Assembly: GCA_029959195.1 (NCBI GenBank)
Contig: CP114118.1
Coordinates: 1,054,001-1,118,000 of the forward strand
Origin: Dictyophora rubrovolvata
Taxonomy: Eukaryota > Basidiomycota > Agaricomycetes > Phallales > Phallaceae
Reading direction: 5' to 3'
DNA length: 64,000 nt
Within the stretch, counting starts at the first letter, position 1; each line of letters starts with the position of its first letter. A program made the translations under genes and the position numbers. Of the stretch, positions 11,888-44,126 are shown piece after piece. Under the pieces are notes generated by a model that made no database searches, was not told the DNA's origin, and saw only the letters and a program-made list of their open reading frames with translations.

Positions 11888-13236
<1,349 letters not shown>

Positions 13237-15603: not shown

Positions 15604-17005
15604 ATGTCAAACGAAACACAAGTTTTAGTCGTTGGTGCCGGTCCAACTGGATTGACGGCCGCGATAGCATTGGGGTGTTGACGTTCAAATCGTCGACGCT
15701 GCTTCATCGAACAGAAACGGTGCAAGGGCTTCTTTGATTCATTGTCATACACTAGAAGTGAGTACACGTAACTTTCTTTTTGGTGCAATAGTCTGATTGA
15801 GTCAACGTTAACGTCGTGGTAAGGTACTCGATACGCTAGGAGCAGCAAGTGCAATCGCCGAAAGAGGGATACAATGCGATTCTCTCAAGTTCAGATCTAC
15901 CGCCGAACAGGCCCTTGTAAACGTTGAGTTATCTCTTCTCAAAGAGTACACAAACTTCCCCTTTTCGGTTCTCATCTCACAAACCGACACTGAAGGAGTT
16001 TTACAAAAACATTTGGATGCCCAAGGAGTTTGTGTTCAACGTGGAAAAGAAATCGCCGGTATTAAGAGGATGCATGGTGATAAAGTCGAAGTTTTGTTTT
16101 CTGACAATTCGACTATTGTTACCAAGTATATTATTGGAGCAGATGGTGCGCATTCTACGGTAAGTACATACTAATAGGAGTTCCATAGATGTGAGTGAGA
16201 TCTGACATTCTGGGATCATGCTAGGTCAGACACTTGGTCGGGATAAACTTTAAAAATCCGAAAACGGGCGCATCCTACGACGACCCTAACGCTCCCGACG
16301 TGTTCCAAATGGCATTGGCAGACGTATTTATATCTCGAAGAACCACTTCCAGAGCTACTTCGCAGTGATCAACCGACTGCTTTTTTATTAGAACACTACC
16401 TCCTTCTCATACCAATCCGCTCCCCTGCAGAGCCGACAAGACTCATGTGGCGTGTTATCTTAGCCATGCTCTCCGGTGAAGCAGTACCGCACAACCCAAC
16501 AATCCAGTATCTCCAGCAGGAACTTGACAAACGGAGTCCTTTCAGTACTCCGATTACTATCTCCTCTGTTGTCGCCGCATCTCGATATCGAGTTCGTGCC
16601 GCTCTAGCTGATGCGTACACGGCTAAAATAGGGAACTCGCACGTCTTGCTCATTGGTGATGCTGCGCATGTGCATTCCCCCGTTGGTGGACAGAGTATGA
16701 ATCTCGGAATATGCGACGCGGTATCTGCTGCAAACACCATTTATGCACACTTGAACACGCCTACTAGTAGTCCCGAAAAACGAGATTCAATCATAGCGAC
16801 GTATGGCAAAAAACGACATGAAGTGGGTGAACGAGTTGTGGGACTAAGTTTGTCGATGACGAAGTTTTTGGCATTTGGAGCTGGGTCGAAGTGGAAAAAC
16901 GCTTTGCGGAATATTCTTTTTAAGACTTTGATGAGCATTCGTCTGGTTCGCAGACAGGCTGCATGGAGGGTGTCTGGGTTGATTAATCGAGAGAATGACG
17001 TGTGA
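15604..17005 (+). pseudogene. FAD-dependent aromatic-ring monooxygenase (PheA/TetX-type), frame-broken
   Basis: The protein is of the FAD_binding_3 class (phenol or pentachlorophenol hydroxylase relatives). It starts with the FAD-binding VLVVGAGPTGLTAAIAL and has the mid motif IIGADGAHST. The C-terminal FAD motif reads HVLLIGDAAHVHSP followed by GGQSMNLGICDA. Introns near 15760-15823 and 16160-16224 splice in phase. Two breaks are visible. Just after AAIALG (about 15675), TGA follows in the running frame while VDVQIVDAAS continues in the next. Near 16320-16335 the frame shifts again between ALADV and YLEEPLP, where about four extra bases (TTTA-like) would explain it. Everything else is well conserved, so inactivation looks recent, or two sequencing errors exist. 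Substrate unknown. Confidence 0.7.
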
Positions 17006-18038: not shown

Positions 18039-21000
18039 ATGGCTTCCTCCTCCTCATCATCGATACCACCACAACAAACATCCAACCCGGACACAATTAC
18101 AAACAATCCAAATTCAAATTCAAATTCAACTTCAAGATCGGCATCTGCGTCTGCATCTGCATCAATTCACATTCCTCGGTCGCATCATCCTCACCATCAT
18201 GAATTGTCGACATCAACGCCTGTGGTAGCAGCAGCAGACGGGTCCGCGACGTCTACACAAGGACATACACAGCCACATTCTCATCATTCTAATTCTAATT
18301 CCCATGAACAGCATTTCTATCAGCACCAGCATCATTCGCGCTCACATTCTGTCACCATCCCACACGGCGGTATGCCTGGCTCTGCCCCACCACCTTCGTC
18401 GACGTCGCCGATGGGCCAGATGCCCTCTCCAGGCTCCATGGGCGTCCCTTCAATTCCAGGCTCATCATATTACTACCACCCATACACTCTCTTTCCCCCT
18501 CCTCCCCCTCCCCCTCCCCATTCCCATTCCCATCATGGCCCGCCTCCGCCTCATCCTCCCGCGCCTCCAGCACCGCCCAGAGCTAACAGAACTAATAGCA
18601 GTCAACTTCAGGAGAGCGTTCTCCAACCTCAACGAGCCAGCATTGAGGCCAGTCCCAGCCCGTTCTTAGCCTATGCTTCCACTCCCAGTTCTGTGTCCAT
18701 CCAGGACGAGAGGATAAATGGACCAGCAGGCCGTCCACGCGGACCATCGACCTCGGCGTCGCCTTCTCTTCGCGGTGCATCTCCCTCGTCATTGTCGATT
18801 TCAACTTCTACGCCAGTCCTCCAACCATCCTCAGTATTATCATCATCATCATCATCATCCCACGTGTCATCTCGCCCTCAACTACACCCTACCTTTTCAT
18901 ACTACCGATCGCAAGCGAATTACGACAAACAGCACGGTCTATTCCAAAGGGGGGTAAATCAAATTCACCCTTCTGATAATGTCGTTGCGGACACGATGTC
19001 AGATCAACTACGCGCCGGACGTAGTCCTTCTGTCTTCTCCGGCAGCGCCACTAATGACAATGATCAACAAGACATTGACAACGACATCGGCGTCGAAGAC
19101 TACGATGGAGACATGTCAGCCGTCGCCATGCATACGCATCCTGCTATGGACCTTCCCATCGATCCTTCTATACTTCCCTCAGCAAATAGTAACATCCCCA
19201 CCGCCGCTCCCTCTTCCTCCTCCTTGAACAACAATTATATGCTCCCCGGAAGTGAAAAACGACCTAATCACGAATACTATCCTTCTCCTCACCATCAAGT
19301 TCAATTTAGGGAACTCATGGTCGCCAACAGTAAGTGCCCAAAATTTTCAATGCAGCGACTTGCAATTATTAATAAACAAATTACTTTATTAGACTCGACG
19401 CACCTTCCCGATCCTCCTATATCTCTCAACAGCCTCGTCGACTCTGAACCTGGAAAAAAACCGGCGTACCCATTACCCACCATCATACGGTGTGCCATCC
19501 TTGGATCTCCCCACGAACGACTCACGCTGTCCGAACTATACCTCGCCATGGAACATCGATTCAGCTACTACACACTCGGCGACGGGAAAAGCTGGAGGGT
19601 ACGTATGTATACTTGAACTCATACCTCACACGCATATATTTGTCCTCATTTTTTTTAAAAAAAATAGAATTCGGTTCGACATAATCTTTCTCTCAATAAT
19701 CTGTTCGAAAAGGTCGCGAGACCGATTACTGAACCTGGAAAAGGGTGCTATTGGGTTGTAGCGCACGATAAACCGCCTGGCAATAAACGTGAACGGAAAC
19801 GGAACAAGAAGCCTGGTAAAAAAGCATTGGCCGCTATGGAACGAGAGAAAGAAGCTGCTGCCGCCGCCAGTGCTGAAGCTCAACCTCATTCTGTCACCCT
19901 TGGTAGTGGTCGACAAACAGACGATGAGGATGAAGGCGACGACGCTGGAGAGGATGAAGATGATATCGACGATTCGAGAATTGATCAGGATCAGACGATA
20001 ACTCTGAACTCCAGTACCGTGGCGCGGAGAAGATATATTCCCAGCGGTTCGTCAACATCAGCTACAACAACGTCAAATGTAGCCGCTTTCTCACCTTACA
20101 TGACGACGACGATGACGACAATGCGTCCACCATTTGGTAACGCATATAGCCGAGGAACTGTCGCGCCGAACGAAGGCAGCTACGCCGCCGTGACCGGTGT
20201 CATTCCCCTGCTGAGTCAAATCCCGCTTCCTCCTGCCAGTTTTGGAATCGGTATGGCTTCTAGTGCCAGTAGTGTCAGATATGGTGCCAATCCGAGTTCG
20301 AATCCTAACGAGGGACCCTTTTCAGCGTATGCCCCCCAAAATGAGAGTGGTGGTAGTCCTGGTTTCAACCGTAACAATGCCCTGATGGGGTTTGGTAATA
20401 CTCGGGTTCAGACTGGCACGGATATGAACATTGGGTCGGCGTCGTCCATGTGGAGTCATGCTACTTCCAATCGCACGTCCACTGGAGAATCTGCAACCGG
20501 TGTTGCGACAGCCTCGAGCAAGAGAAAGAGAAGAACAACAGCCGCACAGAATAATGAAAGTCTCACGGCTGTCCGAGAACAATATCCCGGTACTGGAGTA
20601 AGCCCCGTTTGTTTCGAAGTTTTAATTTTCACTAATAATTTTCTCCGGGTGAAAGACGATGAGTCAGCACGCCAGTGCAATAATCCAAAACCAGGAGTCG
20701 GGCTCAAGTTTGAGCCCGTCGATGATAAGAAATCCGAGCCAGGAATCGGGCGCAAGTACAAAGTCATCATCATCGACGTTCACGCAAGCTACCCCAATGC
20801 AATCATCATCATCATCATCATCTCAACCGCACTCCTCGCGGGGAAGGATAATGGTATCAGCCTCCACGACGCCATTTACCGGCTCAGCGTCACCCTCGCC
20901 AGCAGCACTTGGCCGAGCGTCACTAACTTTAGGTCCGGCACAGGCACAACCGCTTTCTGCTCAATCGAGTTTCGGTTCGGTGGGATTTTCCATTCCTGAG

Positions 21001-21594
21001 AGTGTGGCTACTACTAGTTCGGCAGGATCGGGGGGTGAAACATCGGCATCCACTACGAGTCACCCAGTGAACACTCAGCGCGGTACTTATAACCGGGGTC
21101 TCGGACCTCAACGTACTACACGGCAAAATCCAACGAGGAGATTCGATCCAGTTGTTCCTTCATCAATCACTAATAGCAGTACCACCGGACTTCAACCTTT
21201 TAATTCAACCCAAAATAATACTAATAATAATAATAATAATCGTCCACGCGATACATTCAATGCACTAGCTGCGCAAATTGCATCTGAATTTCCACAGACT
21301 CGGACAACATCTACATCTTCTGATTTGCCGATTAACTTCGGAGGTTCTGTTGATTCGATAACTGGCTCTACTGCTGTTAATACACGGACTACGCGAAAAC
21401 GACCCCAGCTATCTCGAACACACCCGGTTAATGGTCTTCGTTCGTCTAAGAAACAGCCCCAACGTGGTGGGGAGAGTCAGAGTGAGGGGAGCGAGGAAGA
21501 GGAAGGGGATGAAGGGAGCGAAGAAGATGAGGATGAGGATGAGGATGAGTACGTTCCTTCTGGTTCTGCTAGGAGGAGGGGGAGACGCAGGTAG
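18039..21594 (+). CDS. Forkhead (winged-helix) transcription factor, canonical member of the local cluster
   Basis: Exons 18039-19329, 19393-19598, 19668-20597 and 20656-21594 join in phase and encode 1121 residues. The first about 400 residues are low complexity (poly-Ser, Asn-Ser, His and Pro runs). The box RPNHEYYPSPHHQVQF is encoded at the end of exon 1. The forkhead domain, around residues 470-550, reads PTIIRCAILGSP, RLTLSELYLAMEHRF, SWR and then NSVRHNLSLNNLFEKV and GKGCYWVV. The intron falls exactly between SWR and NSV. The recognition helix keeps the base-contact Asn and His of forkhead proteins, so DNA binding is expected. A basic stretch (KRERKRNKK) follows the domain, then an acidic segment, Ser-rich regions and a C-terminal acidic then Arg-rich end (RRRGRRR). 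It is nuclear by inference; target genes are unknown. Confidence 0.9.
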
Positions 21595-24500
21595 TCATTA
21601 TTTTTAGAAAGTAACGCTATCCTTGAATTTCTTTCCCCTTTGACCTGGCGAATATTAGGTCTTAGACGGTGAAATTATTCTCTCCAAAGGGAAATCACGA
21701 AGAAAACAAGAACACGCCTTTCGTTCCTTATCATTTACACTATGAATACCCTTTTTTTTTACATATTTTTATAACCCTTGCTTTTTGATATACCCTTTTC
21801 AAAATAGCTTCCTTTTTTCTTTCTATATTCAACAACTCGATTTATATTTTACATATTAAGCTAACATCATTTATCCTACCATCAACTCATACTTTAACCT
21901 ACACTGTGCTGTAGCTATATTCTAACGTCACGCTTTCGTTGTTTACATGTCGCTTTTCCAAATTAATATAGCATAATGTTGAAATACAATATGGAGAGTA
22001 TTTTCATTATGCTCCATGTAACAGTTTTAACAATTACCTGTGGTAATCCAGATTCAGAAATCTGTGAGAACACGCACCTATGTAATTATGTATCCATCTT
22101 ACCTCTTATGGTGCACTGTAAATAGCGCAACACCGATCTTTTAATTGAGTTGAGAGAATCAAGACATTTCTTGATTATTTGTAGCACTCCTTCAAAATAT
22201 TTAATAACACCATGTAGGTAAGGCACTCAGAATCGGTGAACCCACTGAACTATGAACAACCACGAGTTTGTCTCAAGTTGAAGCACCTGCCCCACCGTCA
22301 GTCCAATTGAAAAGAGGGTCTTTATCCCAAGTGATATCAAAGAAGCGTCCCGCACTGTGAAATGTATGGAGAAGCTCCAGTCTCCGGGCAGAATGTATAG
22401 CCTTGACAGCTGCTACTGTACTCAATTCCAATATAATAACAGGGTGCCCATTAAAACGGCTTATTTCATTTGCCACGAAAAAGAAGTAAGTAAATTTACA
22501 TACTATTTCAAGCTGATGAGCGATCCTTCTCAGCGTTTATGTAAAGACCCTAAAAAATAGAAAGAAAGTCAGCCACCAAGACTAAACCCAGACGTCGGAA
22601 AACATGCGAACAATCTTTTTCTCTTCAATCATGATCACGCGAGTAAAGTTGCAAAAGAATGCATTCTCTTCTCGAATCCGAATTCAATTACGGCGAGGGA
22701 AAACGGCTAGGATCCTTTCTATAATAGGGAGTTGTTATTAGGTTTGAATAACGTAATTTTACCCCAAGGTCTTCTGAGAATTAGAATTCAGTGGCGTTGT
22801 TCAACTTGTCACTATGCAGGTCGGGTGCAAATAACGACATCTTTCATCTTTTCGTCGAGAGCCAAGCATAGAACAGAATTTTTCATCTTGGTGAGAAGAT
22901 CGACGCGATTGTGTTGTACATGTCTCCGAGAAACCGCCTGGACCTGGGTTAGATCTTGTAAAAGCGCAGCGTGTCATGTTCTGTAAATATATTTACGGAC
23001 ACGTCATAATTGCCTAGGATATGTGGTCACTGATTGTACAGCTCAACAACACGCGGCATGGAACTCTAAACTTCCCCGAGTCGGCCATCATCGCCCTTGA
23101 TCTCAGCAGTGCACGTAGAGCCGACGGGCTCAAACTTCGGACTCCAGCCTCTTTAGAGACAATCACCTTCCACCCTCAGAAGTAGCTTAAAATCTGGAAA
23201 TCGAGTTTTAATGATGAGAGAATGGAGAACTTTTTTCCTCTTCGTTTAAGCGCACTTTTGTGGCGAGCGGAATAGCCGGCATCTATGATCATGATAACGC
23301 GTGTTTGAGCAATTACACAGAATGAGGGAACTTACGTAAAAAAAGATCCAAATCCGTGGTGTCAGCTAATTATAAGAAAGTGAAAAGTATCTGCATATGT
23401 ATATCTGTGTGTGTGTATACATTTGTTAGCCGTACATTTTGTTACCCGACCCGACCCTAACTTTGCTCGCCGCACTGACAATTATCGCAGGTAAAATGAA
23501 TGCCCCGGTAAATTATTTATGTATATTGACGTCGCCAATGATGAAATGTAAACGGTTATCTTAAGGAGACTTGAAATCGTGTCTGTCCGTACGTAGAGGT
23601 ACTACATATATTAGCAGGGTATATGTTATATATGAAAGTGGTATATGAAATATGGGTATGTCGATTAGTCGGTTAGAGAAAGAAATGTGATAATAATCAA
23701 AATGGGTTAAGGGGTTAGAGTTTGGGCCAGAACGTTACTACACCGGCAAATGGTTAAAAATAAAAGTTAATTAAAGAAGCATACGAATACGTTAAAAGGC
23801 AATGGAGGCTGTGAAGGTGAAGGCTACAGAATGAAGTTCCATAAAACCCTTCAAGAGAGTGCTGTCATATTAAAATGTGATAGTGATGTGATAGTTGGGT
23901 GCAACATAAAACGAGGGGTAGTCCTCCGCTGGCTAAAACTTGAAGTACGAGAAGTCGAGGCATTAAGGTTACATCATAAAATAATAGCGTCCTGAATTCG
24001 AATTCATTGCCGACGGATAATACAAGAACTATCATTATCCAATTCAATAACTTGAAACTTGAGATAAAGGAAGAAAAGACCCTTACCTGATACATGAAAT
24101 AAGAAGAAACAAAATACAGCGCGAATAATTATGGCTGACGAGATGAGTTACTACCCAGTCATTGTCGTTTTATTTAGAATGTCGTCCTTTTTTTCCGGCA
24201 CAGTAATAGTTTTGGAGGTACAATTTCGCAAAGTCCACGTTGCATTGCCGCGGAAGGCAATACGGTCCAGTGATGCCGAGTATAACTGAATGGCCAAAAA
24301 GCACAAAACAGGTAAGACGGGTTTAACGTGGGTGAATAGTTGGAGTAGAAATGTGTGCAGAGATACCCCGCCTTAGGGGGTGTTGCCACATGGGTAATTC
24401 CCGATGAGGTGGGCACCGATTCAAAATACGAAAGCTAAGGCTAAAAGAGAAGGGGGGAAGTCCTCAGCAGAAAAAAAAAGAAGAATGGAATACGAAAAAG

Positions 24501-24856
24501 AAGATTCTCTGCTAGATAATAATCTGTGAGGGGAACTAGAATGGGTATGAGGCCGAATGGATATCATATAAAAAAACCCCAGACCAACCGGGGGATGTAA
24601 AGTTAATTTGTCTTTATGAATGATACGCTCATTCAGCCTCTCCTTGTTTCTCTCTAGCTGACCACACCAAACTTTTTTCCTTTCTTTAAAGACGGTAGTG
24701 ATCGTTCGGGGAGGTACCCAGCTGCTGGTCCCTTCTGTGATCAACCTTGTTCTATCATTTATAGAACAAGTAATATACGGCATCAGCGACCGAGGAGGAG
24801 ACATCTTTATTGTCTTTTCCTCTCATCAAGTCGCTGTATCGAGCTTGAATGATTGT
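21595..24856. other. 3.3-kb gene-poor region between forkhead genes 1 and 2
   Basis: The flanking genes converge on this stretch. I found no gene with joinable exons. A 67-codon open frame on the minus strand (22476-22273) has coding-like composition (ending in DPLFNWTDGGAGAST), but the candidate upstream exon carries stops in all frames, so it may be a relic. A perfect 14-bp palindrome (GTAAATATATTTAC) lies at 22983-22996. Confidence 0.4.
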
Positions 24857-26527
24857 TCATTCATCGTTAGATGGAGGTACCTCAAAGTAGCGCCAATGTC
24901 TGGGACTGGAAGGGTATACCTCGTCCCGATGCCGTGGATTCACAGGAGGCAGGATTATGCAGCGTGAGTGCCTCCCCAGTAATCTACCGTCGGGAGCGCG
25001 TTCAGTAGGAATCGATCGGAAAAGACTGGTCGAGCTACCGATGCCGCTGTTATAGATATTATTACTATTATCGATGGGGTTATTACGATAGATAGGGGAA
25101 TAGATAGGACCGGAAGATGGATATAAATATGCTGCCGATGCTGATGCTGATGTCGTAGTGGTAGAAGAGGTCGTAGTTATTGTCGTTTCGTGCCATGTTC
25201 GTGATGATGAAGGGTCGGTAGTGGAAGTTGTAGGGGCGGTAGTATTTGTAGGCTTTGGATTGTATGGATGATAAGATTGATGTCGTCCGTGTAATTCTCT
25301 GCCACTACTAGTACTAGGATACAATGATGAGGGCCCCGCTTCGCCGATATCAAGGCTTTGTTCTGTCCGAGGGTGGATTCGGGCTGTTATTGGCCTCCAT
25401 TGGAAAGTTCCTGAGCTTGAAGACGGGCCCATTGCCAATGACGACGATGACGTTCCAGGAATGGACTGTTGAGGCGAAACGATGGATCGTCTGGTCACAC
25501 GCTTTCGCACACGTAGCGGTGGTGGCGCACTGTGATTAATTGTCCAATACCCGCCCTGTCCTGGTTCCGGACGTTCTGCGTTCTTGAACCTTTCCTTCTT
25601 CGACAAATTTTGTAGCAGAGTCCTCTAGGCGAGGGAAGAACCAGTCAGTTCTGGCTTGATTCGAGAACGAGAAGAATAGCGGAAGAATAGCGGCTAGTTA
25701 TAAGAAGAAGAAGAAATTACATACCTCCCATGATTTCACACCCTTCTCTTCTTCCTTCTCGTAGTAGCGAAACCTTCGCTTGAGTGTTGAACGTAATTCA
25801 GCGAGCGTAAGTCTTTGATGAGGCGAACCAAGGATGGCACACTCGATTATCAATGGCATGGAATACTGCGGTGGTTGATCACGATCACCTTCCAAGCTGT
25901 TTAGACCCAGGTTTTCACACTCTTCAAGAGCTGCAGCTGAAGGAGAGAGAAAAAATTATAGCGCATTAGTAGAAGGGAAAAAAGATTTAATTCTTAGCAT
26001 TTCGTTTACATACGATCATGTGAAGTCAAAGCATCAAATTGGTGCTGGTGATACGAGGCAGGGTAGTAATTACGATTCGGAAGTTTCCCTGAGGAGCCGG
26101 TATTGGTGGGTCTGTTACTACTGGTGCTGGTGTTGCTAGGACCCGCTACGGGTTCTTCAACAAGAGGACTATCCCGTGTTCGTAAAGGTGGTGTTCCAGA
26201 AGAATGGGGGGATGTCATGATAGGTGGAAGGTAGGTTAAGGAAGGCGATGAAACTGTACTACCGAGGTGCAACTCCTGTACAGACGGTAATACTTGTCGT
26301 TGGCCCGACGGATGAGGGCGAGGGGAAAATGGGAAATGAATGGACGATAAATTAACTGACTCTTCTTCTCTTGGAGGGGGCGTGGCACTGAAAGAGGACC
26401 TAGTAACGTGACGGTCCCATTGTTGCGAAGAAGTGGCGGGCATGATTGGGGGCAACGATGGATGCCGCCAATTTCTGGGATTGCTTCTTCGTCCTCTGCC
26501 CCCGGAATGTCCATGCGGAAAGGCCAT
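24857..26527 (-). CDS. Divergent forkhead-like protein 2
   Basis: Exons 26527-26014, 25936-25725 and 25624-24857 join in phase to 497 residues. Exon 1 is Ser/Pro-rich and ends with the box LPNRNYYPASYHQHQFD. Exon 2 gives GLNSL and the first half of a winged helix (SMPLIIECAILGSP, QRLTLAEL, KRRFRYY, KSWE). Exon 3 opens with RTLLQNLSKKERF where the canonical factor has NSVRHNLSLNNLF, then GQGGYWTI, and continues as a basic then Ser/Thr-rich tail ending SPRHWRYFEVPPSNDE. Intron positions and phases match forkhead gene 1. The Asn and His that contact DNA bases are missing, so DNA specificity is likely changed or lost. A further 5' exon is possible: a short ORF starts at about 27056. I do not know a function. 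Confidence 0.75.
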
Positions 26528-27968
26528 CGGGGAAACAGTGAGAAACCGTCACTCACAGAAGGAGATTGGGGTAGGGAGGAAACACAAAGCGGACGCAATG
26601 TGAGAAGGACGGTAAAAAACCGATAGCGAGCCCCGTTTCTCTGTTTCTCTTTGTTCTTGTTTTCGAAATTTGCCTTTTTATGAGAAAACGGGGCCACGGA
26701 TGGTGCGCGACAAGAGGGGAAGGGACTGCTCTGATCTGTATAGCCTCGAAACGGGAGTTGGTGCAATTCGTCCAGGACTTATTAATTTCTTTGTAAAAAA
26801 GAATGATTCCGATGGAGGGGCGATGTTTTGAGTAAAATAGTGGATAACCGCACTGACGTCGGAGGAGGCCCATCCCTCAAATCGATTGAAATTTGCGAGC
26901 AAGAACTCAAACTCACGGTTTACGCCTGTACACTGCCTGAGGTGTGGCAACAACGTGTTGTTTCGTAATCGAGATTAGCGCTGTTGGGAAGGGGCAGGTG
27001 GAGGAGGTAAGTCGACAGGCCATGTCAACAAAGGGTCGCTGTTCTTAGAAGACATGAGCTAAAAAAAAGAGAGAGAAAGCGGGAGGGAAAGCAAGTTAAG
27101 AAATGGTAGATATAAATTTAGTATTTGTTTCCTGAGGTTGGACCCGAAACGGAAAGCCGATTAAGTCGAGATTGCAGAGGAGAAGGACACGGATCAGTAA
27201 TAAATACTTAATGATCAAATGAGGGCGTAATTGCCTAGTGGGCTTCTTTAAGACATCAACAAGTAATAAATGGCGTGAAGTTGCTGCAGCAGGAAGCTTT
27301 CGATTTTATGAGAAGGGATCATGTCGTTCTTTGTTCTTGCTAATAATATCGTGGTCATCGGATTAGTGCAGCACCTTTACGGCGTGGTCGACGCAAATAA
27401 TATATATAATATATTATATATTCGGACGGGGAAAAACTACAAATATGGTTAGTTTGGCATTTGTTTATTGAAGATAAGATGGGATGGATAAGATGGTGGG
27501 ATGTGTACGTACCTTGCAGAAAATGGCCGGATGCCTTTTTTTGGGTCCACACATCAAAAAACGTGTTACATAGCTGACCTCGTTTACTTAGGGACACCGG
27601 CGCCTTATGCCCCATTACGTCACTCGACTGGCGCCGAAACTCGGTCGTCCTCGACTTTTGCATCCTGTTCCTGCAACCATCCGGACGGTCATGTACGGTT
27701 ATGCACGGTTATCCCACTCCCATGACAGTTTTCAGTTGCATTATCTTTGCTTGAATTTCTCTCTTTCTTCTGCAAAAAAAACATGTATGGCTGTGTAGGG
27801 CTCTGAAGACCTGAAATCCAGTGAAGCTCATTGTATTTTCATAGAATTCCAAGTTGAAGCAAACTTGTTCTTTTGATTTGCTAATTTACGCGTGTCTTTG
27901 TAGACAGTCAAAATAGACGGCTTGGCAAAGGAGGAAAAACAAAAACGAGCTTATCGTAAAACATCATT
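26528..27968. promoter_or_regulatory. Upstream region of forkhead gene 2
   Basis: 1.4 kb with no confirmed gene. A short minus-strand ORF (ATG near 27056, starting MSSKNSDPLL) may be an upstream ORF or an unspliced first exon of forkhead gene 2. An AT-rich near-palindrome (TATATATAATATATTATATA) lies around 27399-27421. A tandem CGGTTATGCACGGTTAT lies near 27693-27711. Confidence 0.35.
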
Positions 27969-28632
27969 CTATCCTTCCGGAAACTTCTCTCTGAGCGCGT
28001 TCCATACCAAGATGTCGTTCTTCCACATAACTTCATGCCAATCATGTTGTAATCTCATATTTTTGGAGTCATCCGGAAAAAGGGGTTAGAAATCTGAAAT
28101 TGAACAGTATATGAAACTAAACTATGAAATAAAAGAAATTTCACGATGATAACCTGGTCCATACCTCGACTCATAATCATAAAGTACACCACTGCCAGGT
28201 AGCCGGAGCCGAAGGCTACACACCGCCACCCTAAACCTTAAAACATGCATATAATCGTCCTTTGTTTGAAACAACTCCCGGTCTTAGGTTTTGCCGTATG
28301 AAACTAGTACCAGCTCATTCGGGAAAGTTCCTCCGATCAAATGGGCGGGAGACACATGCTCTTTACATAAAGAAATGATCCTGGGTTAGGGCAGGATTGA
28401 CCATTCGATCGTTCAGCTGGAAAGTACTGAGGTTAAGCGGATGCCAGGTAATTCGAAGTTCGCGTTTACTACATAACGTGAATTTTTTGAAGCTATGTTT
28501 ACTCACTAGCTAAATCAGCTGTCACCACGCCTGAGATCCGATCCTCCGCCGCTGCTTGATTGTTTCAATAATTATAATCTATTGGTGTAAGAGGTAAGTC
28601 AAAGTTATTTGCAAACACCTGCTGGCAACTTG
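27969..28632 (-). pseudogene. Possible decayed small (mitochondrial-type?) membrane protein gene
   Basis: Four coding-like pieces occur in order on the minus strand. They are AAAEDRISGVVTADLA (28555-28507, good donor GTGAGT); HVSPAHLIGGTFPNEL (28360-28311); a hydrophobic segment VAFGSGYLAVVYFMIM (28236-28154); and a C-terminal piece LQHDWHEVMWKNDILVWNAL ending in TAG (about 28080-27969). The first two pieces join in phase. The second to third join and the entry into the last piece do not: one T is missing in a short T-run near 28082. The layout resembles a small single-pass mitochondrial subunit, but I cannot name it. It could be a pseudogene, a gene with assembly errors, or a mis-parsed structure. 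Confidence 0.35.
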
Positions 28633-33361: not shown

Positions 33362-35373
33362 ATCAAAAAGTTTCCTCTTTCTCTTTTTCCTCTTTTCTTT
33401 CGCTCCATTTTTATGTAACGCTCAGATGCACAAATGTGGAAACACGAAGCTCTCAATTTATATTTTTTTTGTTCGAACCGTCGCCTCCAAATAATAATAC
33501 TATATGCTATCCAAGCTCTTTGTTGTTTTTGTTGTTGTATTTACATCGGGCAATTTTTTATACTTGTTCCGCTCTGCTAGCTCAGAAAACTTTTGTTTGA
33601 AGATCAGTTTTTGGAATGGTTAAACCCATACTCCGGCATGTAAGAGAGGACGATTGATTGCAGGTAACAAAAAGACAAACGAGACAACACAAGGGTGTCG
33701 TGCTGAGCGGAGCATAGATCATAGACCGAAATGGATTAGCACATCATCATTAGGGCTGCTGATTATTATTTGGCTCACTGGGATATGTACTATATTTTCT
33801 CAACAAGATTGTTTATCTCTGGCTCTAATACAAGCTCCGGGAGCTTACATGAACGTCCAGCTGGATCTATCTGATAGATCTACGTGTATTCTTGCTGATG
33901 ACATTATGCTATCAGCCGGAAGCTTTGAGCCGCACACACTTCCCTTAATTGTTCTTACGGCTGTTTTAATTGAGAAGAGAGAAACATCGCAGTTGTCGTC
34001 CATCACTTCGCTTGTTAATTGATGTCCGTGCTTGTAGGGAATGATGTAACTAGATTTGGAATTTTTTTACATGCTACACTGGTAAGTTCAACTGAGTCGT
34101 GGATAACGGTATGCATACAGGCCATAAACTGCATTTGACGTGGTCGTGGAAGCATTGGATGGTAGGGACAGCCTATCAGCCATGGTCTGACTCAGGCCTT
34201 GACAGATTGCAGAAACGAGAGAAGGACAGGAGTAATTGATACTATACATCATCCGCGCCATTTATCGAAGCTCTTCTTGAAAACTCGACAAGCATTCAAA
34301 CCGAATCAATTTGTGAGAAGGAGAACTCTTCTGTCAGTCGGGATCACACTAACAGTCTAACGAAAAACATAGTTTCAATAGTAACTGAAAGGGTTCTATC
34401 AACAAGTTTGAGGGGTTTGCCATTATTCTGAGCGGATGCTATAGCGTCTGAAAGGTCGGATTTCCATGTTTCAAGAAGAAAGTTTGAAATGACAAATTCG
34501 TTTGGTCGTGTTCAATTCAGTTTCCCCGCAACGATGTTTAGGCATGGCTTACTCACCCACAGTATACCCATGACTATTTTGAGAAAGCTTAGCCGAGCAT
34601 TCAGCCTCACATAAGTCAATCGAGCTCTTCCTTTAAGCGGGGTGTTGCGATAAAAGGCCGGACGCGTCCTGACTATAGCTAGCGCTGCTCGATAATGTAT
34701 TGAGACCAAACCGGGTTGTTTCGAGATATGCTTTCAGTTAAGGAGGGGTAGAGTCTGCTAAAAAAATAATCAATTGGACATAATTAAATAGTACTAATTT
34801 GCATACACAATTCAACGAAGCTAGCTTACCTTTTGCACTTGAACAGTACCTGATGTGCAACTGAATGGTGTTTGTCGGATTTGGGCAACGAACAACGCCT
34901 GCAAGCCACACGTGACCCGGGTACTAGTATGACATAGAGTGAACGCTGGAAACAACGCCGCCCGAGTTCATATCAATTCACTATTTCATCTGTGATATAA
35001 CTCCGCTCAGAAAGCCACATGAGTCTTTGTGAGGAATCCCGGTGAAATGCAGGCTATTTCACTTGAATGAATCATGAAGTATGTATATAACATTTCGTTG
35101 CCACCCCACCTCCGGGCCCGATTTCATGAGATCTCGTCCGCTTCGAAGTCTTCTTAAACACTAAAGTACCTTCCACTAAAGGCAAGTTTATCCACTTACC
35201 AAAGCGCAGTTGAACGCAAGCGATCAATCAGCGGTATTCCGAACAGACCGTAGGTGTGCCAGGTCCAAATGAACTCGTACTAAACTTGATTCGGTCGGCT
35301 AGAAAGAAGTCGATGACGAACTTGAAAAAAAACACACCCAATTGTCCCAGTGTAATAGAAAATAACCTAGACA
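33362..35373. other. 2-kb region without recognisable genes
   Basis: The region holds T-rich 3'-untranslated sequence of the TPR gene (33362-33600), then AT-rich DNA. A 122-codon plus-strand frame at 33654-34022 has no motif and unconvincing composition. Nothing else is supported. Confidence 0.4.
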
Positions 35374-36062
35374 TTAATTGCAAGAGAGTGCCAGTGGGGC
35401 GACGAAAGGGAAGGGACAGTTCCTGTTGCCTAGGTCAATATACTAGAAAAAAATGACTATTGAATAGAATAGAAATGAATAGCATGACACGGACAAAGTG
35501 ATAATATGATCGACGCAATGCAATCATTCGGAATTTGAAAAAAAAAGAGAGAGGAAATTCAAATTCAAGATGCCCCTTTGACCTGGGCCTTATCAGCCAT
35601 GGGAGATCTGTGTTACTATCAACACCAAGTGTTCCCGTCTGCTGAGAACTTTTTGCCAAATGACATTCAAATTTCTCACCTTCATCTGCATATTACAATA
35701 CCTCAGTCGCGCTTTAAAGGCTGAAATCTGTTCGGGAATAGATAATCGATGTTGTTTGATCAAATGACTCCCAAAGTGGCAACGGCTCAAAGCTCGAAAA
35801 ACTTGTAAGAACGGCTTATCAAAAAAGTCATTGTAAAATTGAGGAAACCACGTGCAAACAGGACCTGCCACAAGATCCTCTAGTAAGGGTAGATATGAAT
35901 CTAATTGATATATAAGTATTCTTGCCTGTTATGAAGGACCAAAGAAATGTCAGATAGTCGATATCATTCATTATAGGCTTCCTTTTTTTCTGCAACAAAT
36001 AAGCGATTTACCCGACATGAATATGAAAAGGCCAAAGCAACAATGAGCACTCGGTGCATCAT
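35374..36062 (-). CDS. Small protein with N-terminal signal-like sequence, function unknown
   Basis: ATG at 36062 opens a 17-codon exon (36062-36012; MMHRVLIVALAFSYSCR) that looks like a signal peptide. It splices in phase (donor GTAAAT, acceptor AACAG) to an 82-codon exon (35925-35680). That exon reads ARILIYQLDSYLPLLEDLVA, then GPVCTWFPQFYNDFFDKPF and SRCHFGSHL, and ends at a good donor (GTGAGA). Downstream the structure is uncertain: an intron of only 38-41 nt would lead to QTGTLGVDSNTDLPWL, and a last exon could end at the TAA at 35374. The protein has several Cys and aromatic residues. I do not recognise a family. The first two exons are well supported, the rest is tentative. Confidence 0.4.
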
Positions 36063-37144
36063 CTTTTGTCCGTCAAAGTGACTGGTGAGAGTTTACATAT
36101 ATCCGAACAGTAACATAGCAACTGGGGGAGCATATGTATGTGTGCTTCAAAACGAGGAGGTAACCAAAGCGATTGTCCTATTTTATCACATCTTCAAAGT
36201 TGCAGAGCAAATCAGAGTTGTTCAACCGGTCGTTCGCTGGGAAAAAAACAAGGTTGCGGTCACGCATCGCGTCACATATGATAAGCCTATGTTCCTCGCC
36301 AGTTCCCGACCACACCTCGATAAAAAATGAAGGTTTTTATGATTATTATAATTATAATTATTACAACAGATTTAGATCAGACTCCCTGCATTACCAGCAT
36401 ACGACATTACTTCACTTCTAGGAGAGATCACCAAGCTAACCCAACCCGACTAACACGATGGATCCGCAGTGCACAAGACCCATGTCTGGAGAAAAGAATA
36501 GCAGCAGCGCTCACCGTAGCATTTGGCTTCCCGAATATATAGTTCTACCTCGAATCCTTTCACTCTACATCATATTTGCACATGAGAGGCATGGTTGACT
36601 GCTTTCGCATTTGATGGGTCTCTGTGTGATCCGCCTTACTATCTTTTTCATTCTCGCCAGGTGGTAGGTTCGATTTAACCTTATATAGCTCCCTGCATTT
36701 TATTCTTAAAGATCCTGTGATGTTTCACTGGTGGGGGATAAATTCATGATTGGTTTAAATTTCCGGCCGTCTGCTTCGACGCCTTGCTTCAGTACGCTGC
36801 GTCCCCATAAGCTTGCAGCAGCTCTTTGATCTGGGAACTTGGGAATTCATTGGCACCCCGTTCTTCTTGCTTTCTCCTACCTCACCCAGTAAGTTGCCGC
36901 ACCGAAAGCACATGGATCTGCCATGATTTTTTCCGACATTAATTCACTATCACTGTTTGCAGGCTCCGAACAGTATATGTCTGTTAAATTTACAAAAAGA
37001 CGTAGCTTTTCGAACGTATCACCCTAATCCTATCTCTTGCCTTCCTCAGCAATCAAACAATTTCTCAATCTTCACATCACGCGTTCCTTCCGTCAAACAT
37101 CTAATCACTCCTTTTTCCAAAAACAATATCAGTCTTTTCTTACT
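36063..37144. promoter_or_regulatory. Divergent region before forkhead gene 3
   Basis: 1.1 kb with short unconvincing frames. ATTATAATTATAATTATTA-type repeats lie near 36341-36363. A CT-rich leader precedes the forkhead 3 start. No gene supported. Confidence 0.4.
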
Positions 37145-38285
37145 ATGGCTCTTCCCTGCGCAAACCCTTTTTCCCAGTTTGTACCTCTCACTTTCCGTCA
37201 TGGCAATGATACTCGCATGTCGGTGCTCCACGAGAACGCTCACGATGGCTCTCATCACGGCGGAGAGATAATGCCACCTATGGTAAGCTCCTTTTTTCCG
37301 ATTCCGTTATCGTCGCGGCTGCCGAAACACTCATTGCGTTTCAAAGCTTTCCTGCACAAATTATCACCTCATCGCTGGCAATGATTATGCCGTTGTTGAT
37401 GCAGTGCGGCTGAACGCGGACAGGAAACTGCCTAATAGAGCTTACTATCCCTCGAGTTATCATCAACAACAGTTTGATTCCATGGCTTCAGATAATCGCA
37501 AGTATATCGGTTCTCTTTTTGTGGCTTGTTTTGTTAATCATTCGCGTAGTTTTTATTCTCGATGAACGCGAAGCGACGGGACTGAATTCCTTAGCAGGGG
37601 GTATTAATGACCCCCCACGATATTCTATGCCGGTTCTCATAGAATGCGCTATTCTTGGCTCTCCCGAACAAAAATTAACCTATGGAGAGTTGAGAATCAC
37701 GCTCAAAACAAGGTTTCGGCATTTCCAGCGGGAGGAGGATGAAGGGAGTAAATCCTGGGAGGTAAGCAAGCGACTCCCAAAGGAGAGAAAAAATCCGAAG
37801 GCCGTTGTGACTAATTTATTACAAATTAGAGGACGTTGATGCAAAATCTTTCCAAGAAAGAAAGATTCATGATCATAGAACGGGCTTCTTATCAAGCTTC
37901 TCTTCAAGGCGGCTATTGGACCGTAAATCCCAATGTACCTCCTTACAGTCATAATCCGAAACGCACAAGCATGAAGCGGAGTCGAGGAACTTCAACTTCT
38001 ATGCGCATTTCCTCTCCCGTCGACAATACTACTGAAGCACCTCGGAGGCACGAAGGCAGTTTGTCCGACTCGAACACAAAACTGGGAGGAATGCACAGTT
38101 TATTCCCTTCGATATCATCGTCATATTCCGAAAGCTCTGTTCATCGCAAAAACCAAACCTACATTCACTTACCGCCACCACAGCCCAATCCTCGCGAGGC
38201 ACGAATCACCAGCCCCCATCGTTGGAAACTCGCAGGTCATGACCGTACGACATACGGAGAATCGGCAAAACGCAGTTCAGTTTGA
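37145..38285 (+). CDS. Divergent forkhead-like protein 3
   Basis: Exons 37145-37282, 37347-37497, 37550-37761 and 37830-38285 join in phase to 318 residues. Exon 2 carries the shared box LPNRAYYPSSYHQQQFD. Exon 3 (212 nt, the same length as in forkhead-like 2) gives GLNSLAGG, then YSMPVLIECAILGSP, KLTYGEL, KTRFRHF and KSWE. Exon 4 opens RTLMQNLSKKERF, then LQGGYWTV and a basic, Ser-rich tail with TSPHRWKLAG near the end. The recognition helix again lacks the canonical Asn and His. The donor between exons 2 and 3 is GCAAGT, a GC-AG intron at the same phase-1 position where the paralogues use GT. It is closest to forkhead-like 2 (ECAILGSP, NLSKKERF, GGYWT). Role unknown. Confidence 0.75.
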
Positions 38286-38834
38286 AAGATTTCAATCTTC
38301 ATTGGTCTGCGCATTCGTAAGAAGCGACTGCATAACAATGTGGCATCCCGCCACTCGGGAGAAGGTATATACATACATAGACAGTTGGGAGGGGCATATC
38401 AACCTCCTATTCCTTCTTCTTCACAATACTGTGTTATCATTGGTTGGACTTGTGAGATCTATTTTTTTTCGAATTTTTTCATTTGTTTTATTGTTATCCA
38501 CTAACCAAGATTAAATCACTCACCATGATGGTTGTAAATAGCGGACTATACCGAGATTTGCTGTATATTATTCATGCGGTACATCTGTAGTAATTTCCCA
38601 TGTATAAATAATAAGATTGCCATACATACCTACCTAAATGAAATTTTCCTTGAACCATTTTATCATTTCCTGATATATGAATTGGGCGGGCTACGGCTAT
38701 GTTTTTTCCAATGTTTTTCATTTTTTTTTATCTTTTCATGACCGTGGCACGCACGAACGCGTTCCGGATAGTCGGCGACGTCCGAAACCTCCGGCACGTA
38801 CGTGGCACCGCACTCCTTCGAAACACTCACACTC
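38286..38834. promoter_or_regulatory. Region between forkhead gene 3 and TSC13
   Basis: 550 bp between two plus-strand genes. AT-rich 3' end, then a T-rich tract near 38707-38737 and a C/G-rich leader just before the TSC13 start. No gene seen. Confidence 0.4.
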
Positions 38835-40231
38835 ATGCCTGAAATCACGGTTTCGTACAGAGGAAAGCCTTCATCCATCGCGAAGGGTTTACCTGTAGCC
38901 TTGAAAGTTGATGAGAAGAACACGATTGAGCAAGTTAAACGTGCCCTCGCCGAGAAGCTTCCTAAGGCACGTTGCGTTATCTTCTAGTCTAGTTTACGAA
39001 TGATAAATTGACGAATGCTTGTATATTATTAAAAGTTTCGAGTGGAGCGTCAAAAACTTTCCTTGAAGAGTGACAAAACAAACAAGGCACTTGAAGACCA
39101 GGCAACCCTGAGTAGCTTGAGTTTAGGGCCAGATGAAGAACTGATTGTGAAGGACTTGGGTCCCCAGATTAGTTGGAGGACGGTATTTTTGGTGGAATAC
39201 GTCAGTATTTGTTCCGTCAGTTGCTTTATTTTTATTTATTTTATTTACCATATACTAGGTTGGACCCTTGCTTATCCACCCAATTTTCTATTATTTTCCA
39301 ACCATATTCTACGGACGCGATTTTGAACACAGTAAACTTCAAAAGTCGGTGCACTGATATTTCACTACTTACTTAATACTTATTCCATGCTCGGCTAACC
39401 AGTTTCGTTTACTTTATGATAATGGCCCACTTCGCAAAACGAGAGTTAGAAACTTTGTTGTACGTTCTTTTGTACAAACACGCAAGACGCTGTTCTCAAC
39501 TAACTACAAAATGTCGCGAAGTGTACATCGTTTTTCACATGGCACAATGCCGTTCAAAAATATATTCAAAAAGTGAGCCCCTGCTTGGTTATTTTTGTTT
39601 GAGTCGATCATAATTGACTTCTATTAGCTCGGCTCACTATCATATAGGCAGTGGTGAGCCATATTTTGCAAATAACCAATATGTCATTTTCAATCGAATT
39701 TCATTAGGCTTTGCTATAGCTTGGAGTGTTTATGGTCCTTCTTTTGGTGCACAAAAATTAAAAAACACTTGGCAGGATGATGATAATTTCTTGCGACTTA
39801 CTTTTGTTGTTTGGGCGGTGGGTTCTGTCCTTGAACAGTGTGTTTTATTACCAACTTATGTCACTTTAGCTTGCTGAATTTTTGAATTTGCATTCTCATA
39901 TAACACTGCGTAACTTACGTCCGCCAGGTACTAGAATTCGCGCAATTCCCAAAGGCTTTGGGTTCAATTTGGTTTCATGTCCGAATTATTTCTGGGAAAC
40001 TCTTGGCTGGGTGGTCATGTCTGTCATGACTGAAAGTATCTCTGGTGTGGCGTGTATCTCCTTAACCTTATATGACTATCAACCAATACTTGCCCTCAAG
40101 TTTGCGTTTTCGCGATTTTATCTATTGCCCAGATGCTTATCTGGGCCCTGAAAAAGCATCGCGCTTATAAACGCGAATTTGGGAAGGAGTATCCTAAGAA
40201 CAGAAAGGCCATGTTTCCCTTTCTGTTATAA
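38835..40231 (+). CDS. TSC13: Very-long-chain enoyl-CoA reductase
   Basis: The enzyme catalyses the last step of each very-long-chain fatty-acid elongation cycle in the ER, reducing trans-2-enoyl-CoA with NADPH and feeding sphingolipid synthesis. The N-terminal ubiquitin-like domain (MPEITVSYRGKPSS, VKVDEKNTIEQV-like helix) leads to the signature KDLGPQISWRTVFLVEY. After introns come HPIFYYFPTIFYGRDFEHS, AHFAKRELETL, FVHRFSHGTMPFKNIFK, NLHSHITLRNLRPPGTRIR, IPKGFGFNLVSCPNYFWE and the C-terminal ALKKHRAYKREFGKEYP with NRKAMFPFLL. The whole steroid 5-alpha-reductase-like catalytic half is present. The first intron (38967-39035) appears to start GCACGT, a GC-AG intron. About eight exons in all. 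The gene looks intact; its 3' end meets that of the next gene 140 bp away. Confidence 0.92.
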
Positions 40232-40370
40232 CTAATATTCAGGTGCTATGAAAAAAGGTAGTGTCCATGTCATTTATAATTTGACTAAGTGCCTTACGAG
40301 GTGTTTATTCCAGTTTACATATTATATAGCTTTGTTATTTCAACTACTAATGGAGAATAGATACTTCTGA

Positions 40371-41233
40371 TCATTTTCTGGTCTTCTGGTTCGGCTTACG
40401 AGACGGACGGACTCTTGATAAGCCTAGAAATCTTGCCGTCGCCATCGCCGCTCGCCTGAAACTGGATTTTCTACGTGTGTCTTTTCTGGCACTTTTGGGA
40501 AAGTCAGGTGGTGGGGCATCTGTTGAGGATATAGTAATATATGACACTCCCCAAAGTGTAGCATCGGGATAGAGAGAGCCGACACTCCGGATAACCTCGG
40601 TTCCTTCCGACCCGATTGCTCTGTCTTTTGACTTATCTATGGCTTTCTAGTTTAGCTGGCCGTATAATCTCGCGCTGACTTGCTCACCGTCGTCCGGTGG
40701 GATCGGGATTTGAGACTTGGGTGGTAGGGTCTGATTATTGTGAGACATATTCTGTGACCCCATATTCTCAGGAGTCTTATCGATTGACAGAGGTGTTCTC
40801 ACGTTAGTTGGTAGGACTGGATGACTTCTGGGTTGAACGGCCGTTTCTGTGCTCCTTGGCGGGAAAACCTACATCAAGATTCAATTTTTAGTTTCAACTC
40901 AGCACTAGTTCTCATGACAAGTCATAGGACTCACATTCATTTCGAAGGACAAGGTCATCTTTCGCGTATCTGTATTATGGAGTGTTTTTCAGGTTAAGAA
41001 GCTCATATACTTATGAAAGTGCGGTTTCCACCCTGTGTCAATGCGCTTGCAAGACTTTCGCTGTAATGCTTCATACTGGTTATCGTACAGTTGATACCCA
41101 GCGTTATCCTCATGTCATACATTTGGTCACTAGACTCTCCTGAAAAAATGCAGACGTAAAGAGATTCATTGTTAAAAGTTAAAACGAAAAGTCCTAGCCA
41201 GAGCCAGGCTCCCGGTTTTCCATTACTAATCAT
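40371..41233 (-). CDS. Conserved-looking protein of unknown function
   Basis: A gene assembled from five exons in phase. A seven-base first exon (ATG at 41233, donor GTAATG) joins an exon reading RESSDQMYDMRITLGIN then SMKHYSESLASALTQGGNRT. Next comes a 35-nt exon (TRKMTLSFEMN), then an exon starting VFPPRSTETAVQP. The last exon runs from SKDRAIGSEGTEVIRSVGSL to a basic tail (RRKSSFRRAAMATARF, RPSRKPNQKTRK) ending in TGA at 40371. The C-terminus is strongly basic and could target the nucleus or chromatin. I recognise no domain. The tiny first exon is inferred from phase only; an upstream start is possible. It is head to head with the Ecm11-like gene. Confidence 0.5.
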
Positions 41234-41275
41234 GCCGTCGTCGTGCTGTTGTTCTCCTCACGAGTTCTCCTCACG

Positions 41276-42841
41276 ATGACCCAGGCGGACAGCAATCGTG
41301 CTCGTTTCTTTCCCCGTGGACAGGATTCTAACTCATCCACAAATCTTGCGTCTGCATCTGAAAATTCCCTGTCTGTTTTTCCTGCCGTATCTAATGTCGC
41401 TGCTACCAGTCATGCTATGGTGACCAGTACTCTGAACTCGACGAATTCTAACGAAGACGACATAATTGCTCAAAGAACTTGTATGATAGAAACTGAAACG
41501 CTTTTTAAACCAAGAAAAGATCGTAATGGAAAGCTCAATCTCTCAGGCCTCATCAAAGAAAATAAAAAACCTCGTGATATCATGCCCTCCGCGACGATTA
41601 CAGAAATAACCGATAAAGGCTCCGAGATATCTCAAGACTCCAATGTCACTTTTTCTAATGTTGGTAATACCTCATTGGCTCTGAAGCCCTCCCGTACCCT
41701 AAATGTTCAGGGCACCGCTTTCGTCCCATCAAACTTAAACGTTCTCGCAATTTCCGACATAACCGTGGAAACCCCTGTTAATAAGAAACCTTTCAACGTG
41801 AAGGAATCATCTCGTGGAGACCATCTTACCTCTAATGAACCGCTAGGGCTGTCTGGCAATCAGCATAATTCTTTTCAGCCTGGTGATTATATGTCAGCTA
41901 CAACTTTATGCTCCGTCATGGGAACTAAGAATAGTCCGCTTGGGAGTACAATGAACAAAATCACCGCTGGACCGCAAGATAAACAATATGCTCTGATGAC
42001 ATCATACAGTGATATTCGAAACCCAGGGTTTCTAGCCGAAGCAAATGATTTAAACGGCAAGTGCCCCCAGCGCAACAGAGAGAAGCGTAGAAACGACACC
42101 GGAGAGGCTCAACTTCCGGACTCTGTCGTTGCTAAGAAAAGAAAAAAAAACAATGGGGTGGGGGTTTGTTTATTTTTCATAAAGTCATTTAGTATATGCT
42201 GAACGTCTCTTACTTTTTTGTCACTTTTCAACCTCGACCGGGCTTATGAATCTAATCTCCAGCAAACCAATTCTTCTCCAGAATCCTACGTATCAAGGTC
42301 TACAGATGAACGAGAAACCGTGGTGTCAACCCATTCCCCGCCATCGAGCTCACTTGCTACTGTGTTAGGGCGAGACATTGAAAACTACATAGCCTCCCAC
42401 ATAGATGAATATGGACGGGCGAAAGCTCGTTGGACTGAGTGCCCACGAGAAGAATGGGAGCAAGGCGCTCTAGGTAAGAAGTGGTTTTGATTTTTCAGCG
42501 GGGTTTTTTGTCTGACACAGATCTGTATAGAAATTGCTGCACGCTTTACGCAAATCTTAGATTTCGTGAGTGTTTATTCATTTGACCAAGAGTAAAATAT
42601 TGATATAGTTTATCTAGGTTAAAGACCATATGAGGTTTGCCTTCTTTGCTCGGAACTATGCGTATCTTCAAGGGCTGAATTTTCATCTCTCAGGCACAAA
42701 ATCATGCTTTATGCGAATTTACAGGCTAAATTGGATGATCATCGGTCAGTCCGCGATAATATTGCTGGCATGTTGAAGGAGGCGAAAAACGAATTAGTAA
42801 CCAAAACTGGTGGTTTAATCGATGAGGGTAAATCAGGTTGA
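41276..42841 (+). CDS. Protein with C-terminal Ecm11-like domain
   Basis: A long Ser/Thr/Asn-rich, apparently disordered N-terminal part (41276 to about 42160) ends in a basic cluster (KKRKKNN). Four or five further short exons follow. They read ESYVSRSTDERETV, then WTECPREEWEQGAL, EIAARFTQILDF, VKDHMRHKIMLYANLQAKL and DHRSVRDNIAGML, and end at TGA 42839-42841. The C-terminal pattern (ECPREEW..GA, FTQILDFVKDHM, K..LYA.L) matches my memory of the fungal Ecm11 domain. In yeast that protein works with Gmc2 in the central element of the synaptonemal complex, giving a meiotic role by inference. The first in-frame ATG is at 41276; its 5' end lies only 42 bp from the start of the divergent neighbour. 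Confidence 0.55.
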
Positions 42842-43099
42842 CAAACGTGTATATTTTTTAAAGCCACAAACGAAATACAAGATTGGCGATTTGAACGGCC
42901 GTAAACTTGGTGTGCGAATATCGAAGTTAGTTATAGCAAGGCGACCAATTTGAAATAGCCTGGATGAAAAATGATAGCGATACAATGTGGCACGATATCT
43001 ATATCTGTGAAATGATGGGTAAAGTTATAACGTAAATGCTGAAGGATGCGAAAAGTATGACACGGATGTATAAAGCAGCGCACGAATGATGATTTCATA

Positions 43100-44126
43100 T
43101 TATACAGTAATTCCGTGAAAACTTAATGACGGCTTAGCCTGTAACGACTTGGGGTCGGGGAGAAGAATATAACGATGTCCTTGCAAGTTCCATGGCCTCT
43201 CTTTGGGGAGGGAAGTTAAGGGAACGAAAGGAAAATGGCTTGAAGCTGAACCGATGCCTTCTCTTTCTTCTTCTTCTTCAAGCCTCTCCTCGCTTTCATA
43301 TTCTGCCTCGTCATTGTCTTCTTCGTCTTCTTCAAGGTCTTCTAACCTTGGGAGTACGTCTAATTCAGGGGTGGAAGCTTCATAATGAAATTTCAGGGCG
43401 GTTTTCAACAATTTATCGGTTTCCCTGGAAATATGAACGGTTCCACACTTGCATAGAGTCCGATTGGACAAATGAAGGTCCTTAGGTAAAGTATAATACA
43501 CCGTTCCGCCCTCCCTAACGGACTGAAAGTGTCTATTTAGGAGACGGGAATAAACTCTCTGCAGGTGTGAAAGCTGTGTTAGGAAGCGGCCTAATTAGGG
43601 ATCTAAAGTAAAGAATATCTTACACGCCAGGTAGATGTTCTATGGTTTTCCTCATCAAAGTAGCGAAAGCGCAATCGAAGAGCTACACATAATTCAGCGA
43701 AAGTAAGCTTCAGTGTAGGAGATCCTAGAAGGGCACATTCTACAATAATTCTTCGTGTATGCTTCGGGGGATGGAAAGAAAAACTATCAAGTTCATTGGG
43801 CTGTAAAAGATTAAGACCCATTGTTTCTCGTAAACGCCATGTATGACCTGCGCAAGTTTTTTGTCCGTTAATAACATTAATAGCAATAAAGGGAAATTAC
43901 TGACTGTCATTCATCAATATTTGGTCAAATTCACATTGATGGTGAATAGAAGGGTAATACCATCTGTTTGGCAATAAACCATCCTCGGCGCGGTACCTGT
44001 CCAACTCTCTTGTTGTCAGTCCTAGATGTCTGTTATTTTCTACTTAGCCTGGAGTACACGTAGTCTCCGAACTCGGAATTGATCGTACCGTAATAGTAGT
44101 CCGTCACTTGCGAGCCGCATTGGCAT
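43100..44126 (-). CDS. Divergent forkhead-like protein 4
   Basis: The well-supported part comprises an exon ending at 43905 with the shared box LPNRWYYPSIHHQCEFD, exon 43847-43624 (GLNLL, then IIVECALLGSP, KLTFAEL, RLRFRYF, TSTWR) and the last exon 43558-43100. The last exon opens RVYSRLLNRHF, then GGTVYYTL, a possible Cys pair (LCKCGT), an acidic Glu-rich segment, and ends SFHGITV. The first exon probably starts at ATG 44126 (MPMRLA) and splices over about 70 nt; this junction is tentative. The phase-1 and phase-0 intron positions equal those of the other three forkhead genes. This copy is the most diverged: the recognition helix shares almost nothing with NSVRHNLS. A TATA box lies at 44234-44241. 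Function unknown. Confidence 0.65.

Follow-up and report, generated by a model that had tools for sequence, protein, structure and literature searches.

Rewritten recognition helices in a nine-gene forkhead family of Dictyophora rubrovolvata

In the forkhead protein FOXN1, base contacts are made by Asn317, Arg320 and His321, and the accessible sections of the same source describe the forkhead core contact residues as strictly conserved across different specificities (PMC7062188). Those sections further report that in the FHL-type forkheads (FOXN1, FOXN4 and yeast Fhl1, which read GACGC) the sequence PDGW stands ahead of the recognition helix, and that in yeast Fhl1 a Ser replaces the helix Asn with the other core contacts conserved (PMC7062188). 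Yeast Fhl1 is also, according to the part of PMC13054639 available, a forkhead protein that acts via alternative recruited partners, Ifh1 and Crf1; we take it as an analogy for partner-based action and draw no sequence link. Here we describe four forkhead-derived genes (copies 1 to 4) in a 64 kb stretch of contig CP114118.1 of Dictyophora rubrovolvata, hereafter the window, together with their relatives elsewhere in the genome. They belong to a family of nine genes in which five members have all three base-contacting residues replaced and probably read other DNA or none.

Rebuilt from the raw sequence, the four genes lie where an earlier note on this DNA had placed them, and their recognition helices begin as it had given, with NSVRHNLS, RTLLQNLS, RTLMQNLS and RVYSRLLN in copies 1, 2, 3 and 4, each right behind a phase-0 intron; splice sites were picked by eye from the DNA alone, so the exon joins are predicted. 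Copy 1 (18039-21594, plus strand; exons 18039-19329, 19393-19598, 19668-20597 and 20656-21594; 1122 amino acids) is a canonical forkhead gene, whose recognition helix NSVRHNLSLNNLF (19668-19706, plus strand) opens exon 3 and whose wing is followed by a basic tail. Copy 2 (24857-26527, minus strand; exons 26527-26014, 25936-25725 and 25624-24857) combines an N-terminal YYP motif and a basic tail with a forkhead domain that carries the rewritten helix RTLLQNLSKKERF (25586-25624, minus strand). The N-terminal YYP motif recurs in copy 3 (37145-38285, plus strand; exons 37145-37282, 37347-37497, 37550-37761 and 37830-38285, the first of them uncertain), here with the rewritten helix RTLMQNLSKKERF (37830-37868, plus strand); its frame as modelled requires a GC-AG intron at 37498-37549. 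Copy 4 (43100-44126, minus strand; 270 amino acids) splices in frame from an ATG at 44126 through to 43100 in four exons (44126-44089, 43996-43905, 43847-43624 and 43558-43100), of which the second holds the YYP motif and the third the front half of a forkhead domain, while the last starts with RVYSRLLN, runs into an acidic tail and has no detectable forkhead homology; the donor of its second intron reads GTCAGT. A search of all six frames of the window with a family profile returned no fifth copy.

What had been called a local family of four proved to be wider, with nine genes in the genome and five of them outside the window. Pfam and protein searches of the assembly (28.24 Mb, 11 contigs), together with reading of the DNA, gave at least 12 forkhead-type genes, all such counts being lower bounds. 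Nine carry the N-terminal YYP motif, namely copies 1 to 4 and five genes on four contigs (C4:738k, C7:280k, C2:756k, C1:2638k and C2:2546k); the motif was not seen in the remaining genes, C4:1765k, C10:771k and C8:581k. Each of the nine family models runs uninterrupted from an ATG to a stop. Two scans of viral contigs returned no relatives of the family. The genome also gave 74 matches to the fungal-type kinase family PF17667, a weak pointer to a mushroom-forming fungus, as the search matched in 4 of 14 prokaryote controls too (in 2 of them above the cut-off).

The forkhead origin of the window genes, as the earlier note had it, is borne out for copies 1 to 3 by Pfam and for copy 4 by a profile of the family itself. 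Against the Pfam Forkhead model (PF00250; length 88, curated cut-off 27 bits), copy 1 scores 90.6 bits (E 7e-26, model positions 1-82), copy 2 scores 50.5 bits (E 2.4e-13, positions 3-82) and copy 3 scores 39.8 bits (E 5.1e-10, positions 3-82); the full models of the five members outside the window reach 61.1, 58.9, 30.0, 32.8 and 38.5 bits. Eight of the nine members thus pass the cut-off, and copies 1 to 3 encode nearly the whole domain rather than the front half of a winged helix that had been ascribed to all four, a description that holds for copy 4 alone. Copy 4 is the single miss, with no Pfam Forkhead match at E<=10. Scored with a profile built from the remaining eight members, it reaches 87.6 bits, where 1000 shuffles reach at most 10.0, and with the final gene models 87.5 bits, where 500 shuffles reach at most 11.8. 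Its kinship is based on the front-half exon and the N-terminal motif; its last exon alone gives no score against the same profile, the match stopping at the helix. Copy 4 is thus related to the forkheads, its second half having been altered or lost.

Protein Data Bank (PDB) sequences tell the same story for the two copies compared. Copy 1 matches 46 of them at E<=0.001, the best being FOXC2 (E 5.4e-17), and copy 2 matches 38, with a best forkhead at E 1.5e-9; nearly all are forkheads by name, one entry in each list being labelled eIF3 subunit B. The best alignments cover most of the canonical FOX domain (FOXC2, FOXA1 and FOXG1; PDB 6ako, 7vox and 7cby) and share the order of front half, helix-3 core and YW at the wing. 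Copies 2 to 4 differ from this canonical domain in having none of the helix-3 Asn, Arg and His, and the nine members together differ from it by the N-terminal YYP motif, a stretch that is left uncovered by Pfam models in all of them.

The recognition-helix Asn, Arg and His are all kept in four of the nine family members (copy 1 and three others, including C2:756k, whose helix reads NAIRHTLS by eye), and all three are replaced in the remaining five: by Arg, Leu and Gln in copy 2, by Arg, Met and Gln in copy 3, by Arg, Ser and Arg in copy 4 (whose "recognition helix" is aligned by intron position alone), by Val, Ser and Asn in C1:2638k, and by Ile, Asn and Trp in C2:2546k. The loss of Asn and His from copies 2 to 4 had been noticed before; Arg is lost with them. 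Across the 12 forkhead genes, five have the canonical trio, five have all three replaced, and in two the first position alone is changed, to Asp in C4:1765k and to Ser in C8:581k. Outside the contacts, Leu and Phe of the helix core persist in four of the five rewritten helices (25586-25624 and 37830-37868 in copies 2 and 3 among them), all except copy 4. Different exon joins do not bring back a canonical helix, as no N-x-[IVL]-R-H occurs in any frame beside copies 2 to 4. We considered a canonical helix hidden by other splicing and rejected it: four sites in the window match this pattern, and only that of copy 1 continues as NxxRHxLS.

With the FHL-type forkheads the rewritten copies would share a forkhead fold with changed DNA reading; in sequence they differ from them. 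In place of PDGW, which the accessible sections of the source put ahead of the FHL helix (PMC7062188), copies 2 and 3 read KSWE and copy 4 reads STWR. An Fhl1-like candidate in this genome is a separate gene, C8:581k (581358-581648, minus strand), whose SSIRHSLS has Ser for Asn as the same sections describe for yeast Fhl1 (PMC7062188).

Helix charge separates the rewritten members further. Counted over 13 residues, copies 2, 3 and 4 each have a net charge of +3, copy 1 and C2:2546k have +1, and C1:2638k has -4; a count over 19 residues gives +4 for copy 4, +3 for copies 1 and 2, and +2 for copy 3. As the two spans differ in trend, we read copies 2 and 3 as keeping a basic helix that is not clearly raised. 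The 25 residues after the wing add +6 in copy 2 and +5 in copy 3, next to +8 in copy 1. The suggestion that the rewritten copies are "DNA-blind" is not borne out, the helix of copies 2 and 3 having stayed basic; C1:2638k is the only member for which blindness is likely on grounds of charge.

The feature that joins canonical and rewritten members is the N-terminal motif, which lies around [YF]YP and has P-N-x-x-YYP-x-x-x-HQ-x-x-F as its consensus. YP is present in nine of nine and the other positions vary, the HQ being missing in, for example, C1:2638k and C2:756k. With leave-one-out profiles, all nine members beat the best of 500 shuffles over the motif and again over exon 2, and seven of nine do so over exon 3, where copy 4 and C2:756k fail. 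The pre-helix intron is in phase 0 in all nine; by eye an intron also occupies this place in C4:1765k and C10:771k, and C8:581k reads through it. Shared in this way with two of the three forkhead genes outside the family, it is an old intron of forkhead genes. Behind the YYP motif lies an intron in phase 1 in eight of nine members (phase 2 in the present model of C4:738k), and the five members outside the window, unlike the four within it, all have a further intron that separates helix from wing. At the other end of the protein, C4:738k and C7:280k resemble each other in a short stretch close to the C terminus (LPGIRSLGLLE and LPGLRIAGLLE), which may be an interaction motif. A C-terminal motif common to copies 2 to 4, picked out by eye, was dropped as weak, 63, 4 and 209 of 1000 shuffles being as good for the pairs 2-3, 2-4 and 3-4, respectively.

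Selection has long maintained the rewritten helix of copies 2 and 3. Over the exon 2 half the two copies differ at a proportion of 0.234 of replacement sites (pN) and 0.919 of silent sites (pS), and over the helix itself pN is 0.08 and pS 0.83, silent differences numbering about 6.5 over 7.8 sites; twelve of the 13 helix residues are identical and one differs. For a 31-codon core block, the six pairs of copies 1 to 4 give pS of 0.74-0.98 and pN of 0.23-0.39. Since silent sites are saturated, we give no ratio of replacement to silent substitution rates (dN/dS) between copies 2 and 3; a helix that differs at one residue in 13 despite such saturation has nonetheless been under long-standing selection, and the earlier description of maintained proteins rather than random decay holds to this extent for copies 2 and 3. 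Among 62 sliding windows none exceeds this 12/13 identity, which four windows that overlap the helix also reach.

How often the helix was rewritten was approached with trees of ten proteins, built from first and from final alignment rows (the latter from the final gene models), each with and without the helix columns. On the final tree the label canonical or rewritten changes three times, with or without the helix columns; on the first rows it changes two and three times. A single origin of all five rewritten helices is disfavoured with helix columns excluded (approximately unbiased test, p-AU 0.0066 on final rows and 0.038 on first rows), on trees with long branches. Clustering of the labels without helix columns is not beyond chance, 183 of 500 shuffles being as low on first and final rows alike. 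C1:2638k and C2:2546k pair in all four trees (bootstrap 78 to 88), and copies 2, 3 and 4 form a group of their own in only one of the four. That clade of copies 2 to 4 alone (96/98 on first rows) was given up: it is lost with the final rows, where the canonical C2:756k, on a very long branch, falls inside and groups with them at 98/95 without helix columns. A clade of the four window genes is likewise unsupported and stands at the edge of rejection (p-AU 0.0485 on final rows, 0.185 on first). It is likely, if not secured, that the helix was rewritten more than once; the direction of change cannot be read from the tree.

What might the rewritten proteins do? For copies 2 and 3 we tentatively prefer, at a little under an even chance, altered or loose DNA reading with nucleic-acid contact retained, a reading favoured by their basic helix and basic tail. 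The winged helix would still fold and remain in contact with nucleic acid, its backbone held by basic residues of helix 3 and of the tail behind the wing, and the Arg, Thr, Gln, Asn and Lys on the helix may read a sequence other than RYAAAYA or bind with little preference. That canonical and rewritten members both carry the N-terminal motif suggests a single partner for all of them, so that the motif could recruit the same partner as in canonical copy 1 and the rewritten copies could re-aim it. In C1:2638k, whose acidic helix makes DNA reading unlikely, and in C2:2546k, whose reading face bears Ile and Trp, helix 3 probably no longer reads DNA; copy 4, with its unrecognisable back half, is a separate case. 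Several observations weigh against retained contact. The Arg position of copies 2 and 3 is hydrophobic (Leu or Met), which is more in keeping with a protein interface than with the reading of bases; the helix charge exceeds that of copy 1 over 13 residues (+3 vs +1) and not over 19 (+3 and +2 vs +3); the basic tail could be a mere nuclear localisation signal; and copy 4 falls outside this account. Comparing the identity of copies 2 and 3 in the helix (12/13) with that in the rest (40/61) gives Fisher p 0.09, not significant on its own, so that conservation of the helix above the rest is only suggestive, and we lean instead on the contrast of silent with replacement differences. The support is throughout that of sequence, with silent sites saturated and hence no dN/dS ratio.

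A hydrophobic residue at the Arg position together with the lost contacts keeps close a second explanation, possible in our view though short of probable, in which the rewritten forkheads work off DNA, occupying the canonical factor's partner through the N-terminal motif or using helix 3 as a surface for protein contacts, with the effect of damping or re-routing that factor. The motif stands above shuffles in all nine members whether their helix is canonical or not, all three contacts are lost together in five of nine, and the charge of -4 in C1:2638k, the Ile and Trp at the contacts of C2:2546k and the Leu or Met of copies 2 and 3 all accord with it. Known forkheads, however, act mostly as monomers, the partner of the N-terminal motif is only putative, and basic helix and tail persist in copies 2 and 3. 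Alternatively, surplus transcription-factor copies could be decaying under relaxed constraint, with the helix changes as drift toward loss. The copy 4 last exon without similarity, its unusual GTCAGT donor, the GC-AG intron of copy 3 and the long tree branches would suit such decay; we nevertheless consider it improbable, given nine open models, eight of nine members above the Pfam cut-off, core Leu and Phe in four of five rewritten helices and, in copies 2 and 3, a rewritten helix kept at saturated silent divergence.

It is also conceivable, if rather unlikely, that we are looking at ordinary forkhead diversity, expansions and altered helices being common in mushroom-forming fungi and merely unannotated. 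One genome was examined here, and the position of the pre-helix intron is old, both of which leave room for this; it is compatible with either mechanism, so the likelihoods given to these explanations are not meant to add up to a whole. Against it stand the core contacts called strictly conserved across specificities in the accessible sections of PMC7062188, and a search of open-licence papers, which turned up no such fungal family in the text accessible and is no proof of absence. The accessible portions of PMC5604158, PMC4624876, PMC5415576 and PMC3998117 contain no description of such a family, and forkhead terms are absent from the main text of PMC8893723.

Around the forkhead genes the window holds a mixed set of neighbours. 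Pfam assigns a Thi4 family member (12295-12966, plus strand), a FAD-binding domain protein (16247-17002, plus strand), an aspartyl protease (45295-45795, minus strand) and a BRO1/ALIX-type protein (51360-52959, minus strand), and no connection of these four to the forkheads was seen. A DM9 repeat protein lies at 49837-50331 (minus strand; Pfam E 1.9e-24), and the gene at 58669-61636 (plus strand), in which a Mad3/BUB1 homology region 2 is followed by a protein kinase domain (E 2.8e-7 and E 1.6e-12), resembles checkpoint kinases of the BUB1 type. Outside the window, an open reading frame beside C2:756k (contig C2 near 755 kb, minus strand; locus positions 2-706) encodes a putative HMG-box protein (PRPPNAFMLYRSDFLK).

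Taken across the family, it is possible, though we hold it with some doubt, that a YYP-marked forkhead lineage has on more than one occasion remodelled its recognition helix so that it no longer reads RYAAAYA, and that canonical and non-reading siblings of one factor coexist, the latter regulating that factor by sharing its partner. Such siblings would resemble Id-type inhibitors, which are helix-loop-helix proteins without a DNA-binding region. Old paralogues in one genome that retain the domain and a partner-like motif, some with the base contacts and some without, amount to a natural experiment, and this nine-gene family may inform how a DNA-binding domain gets re-aimed or retired.

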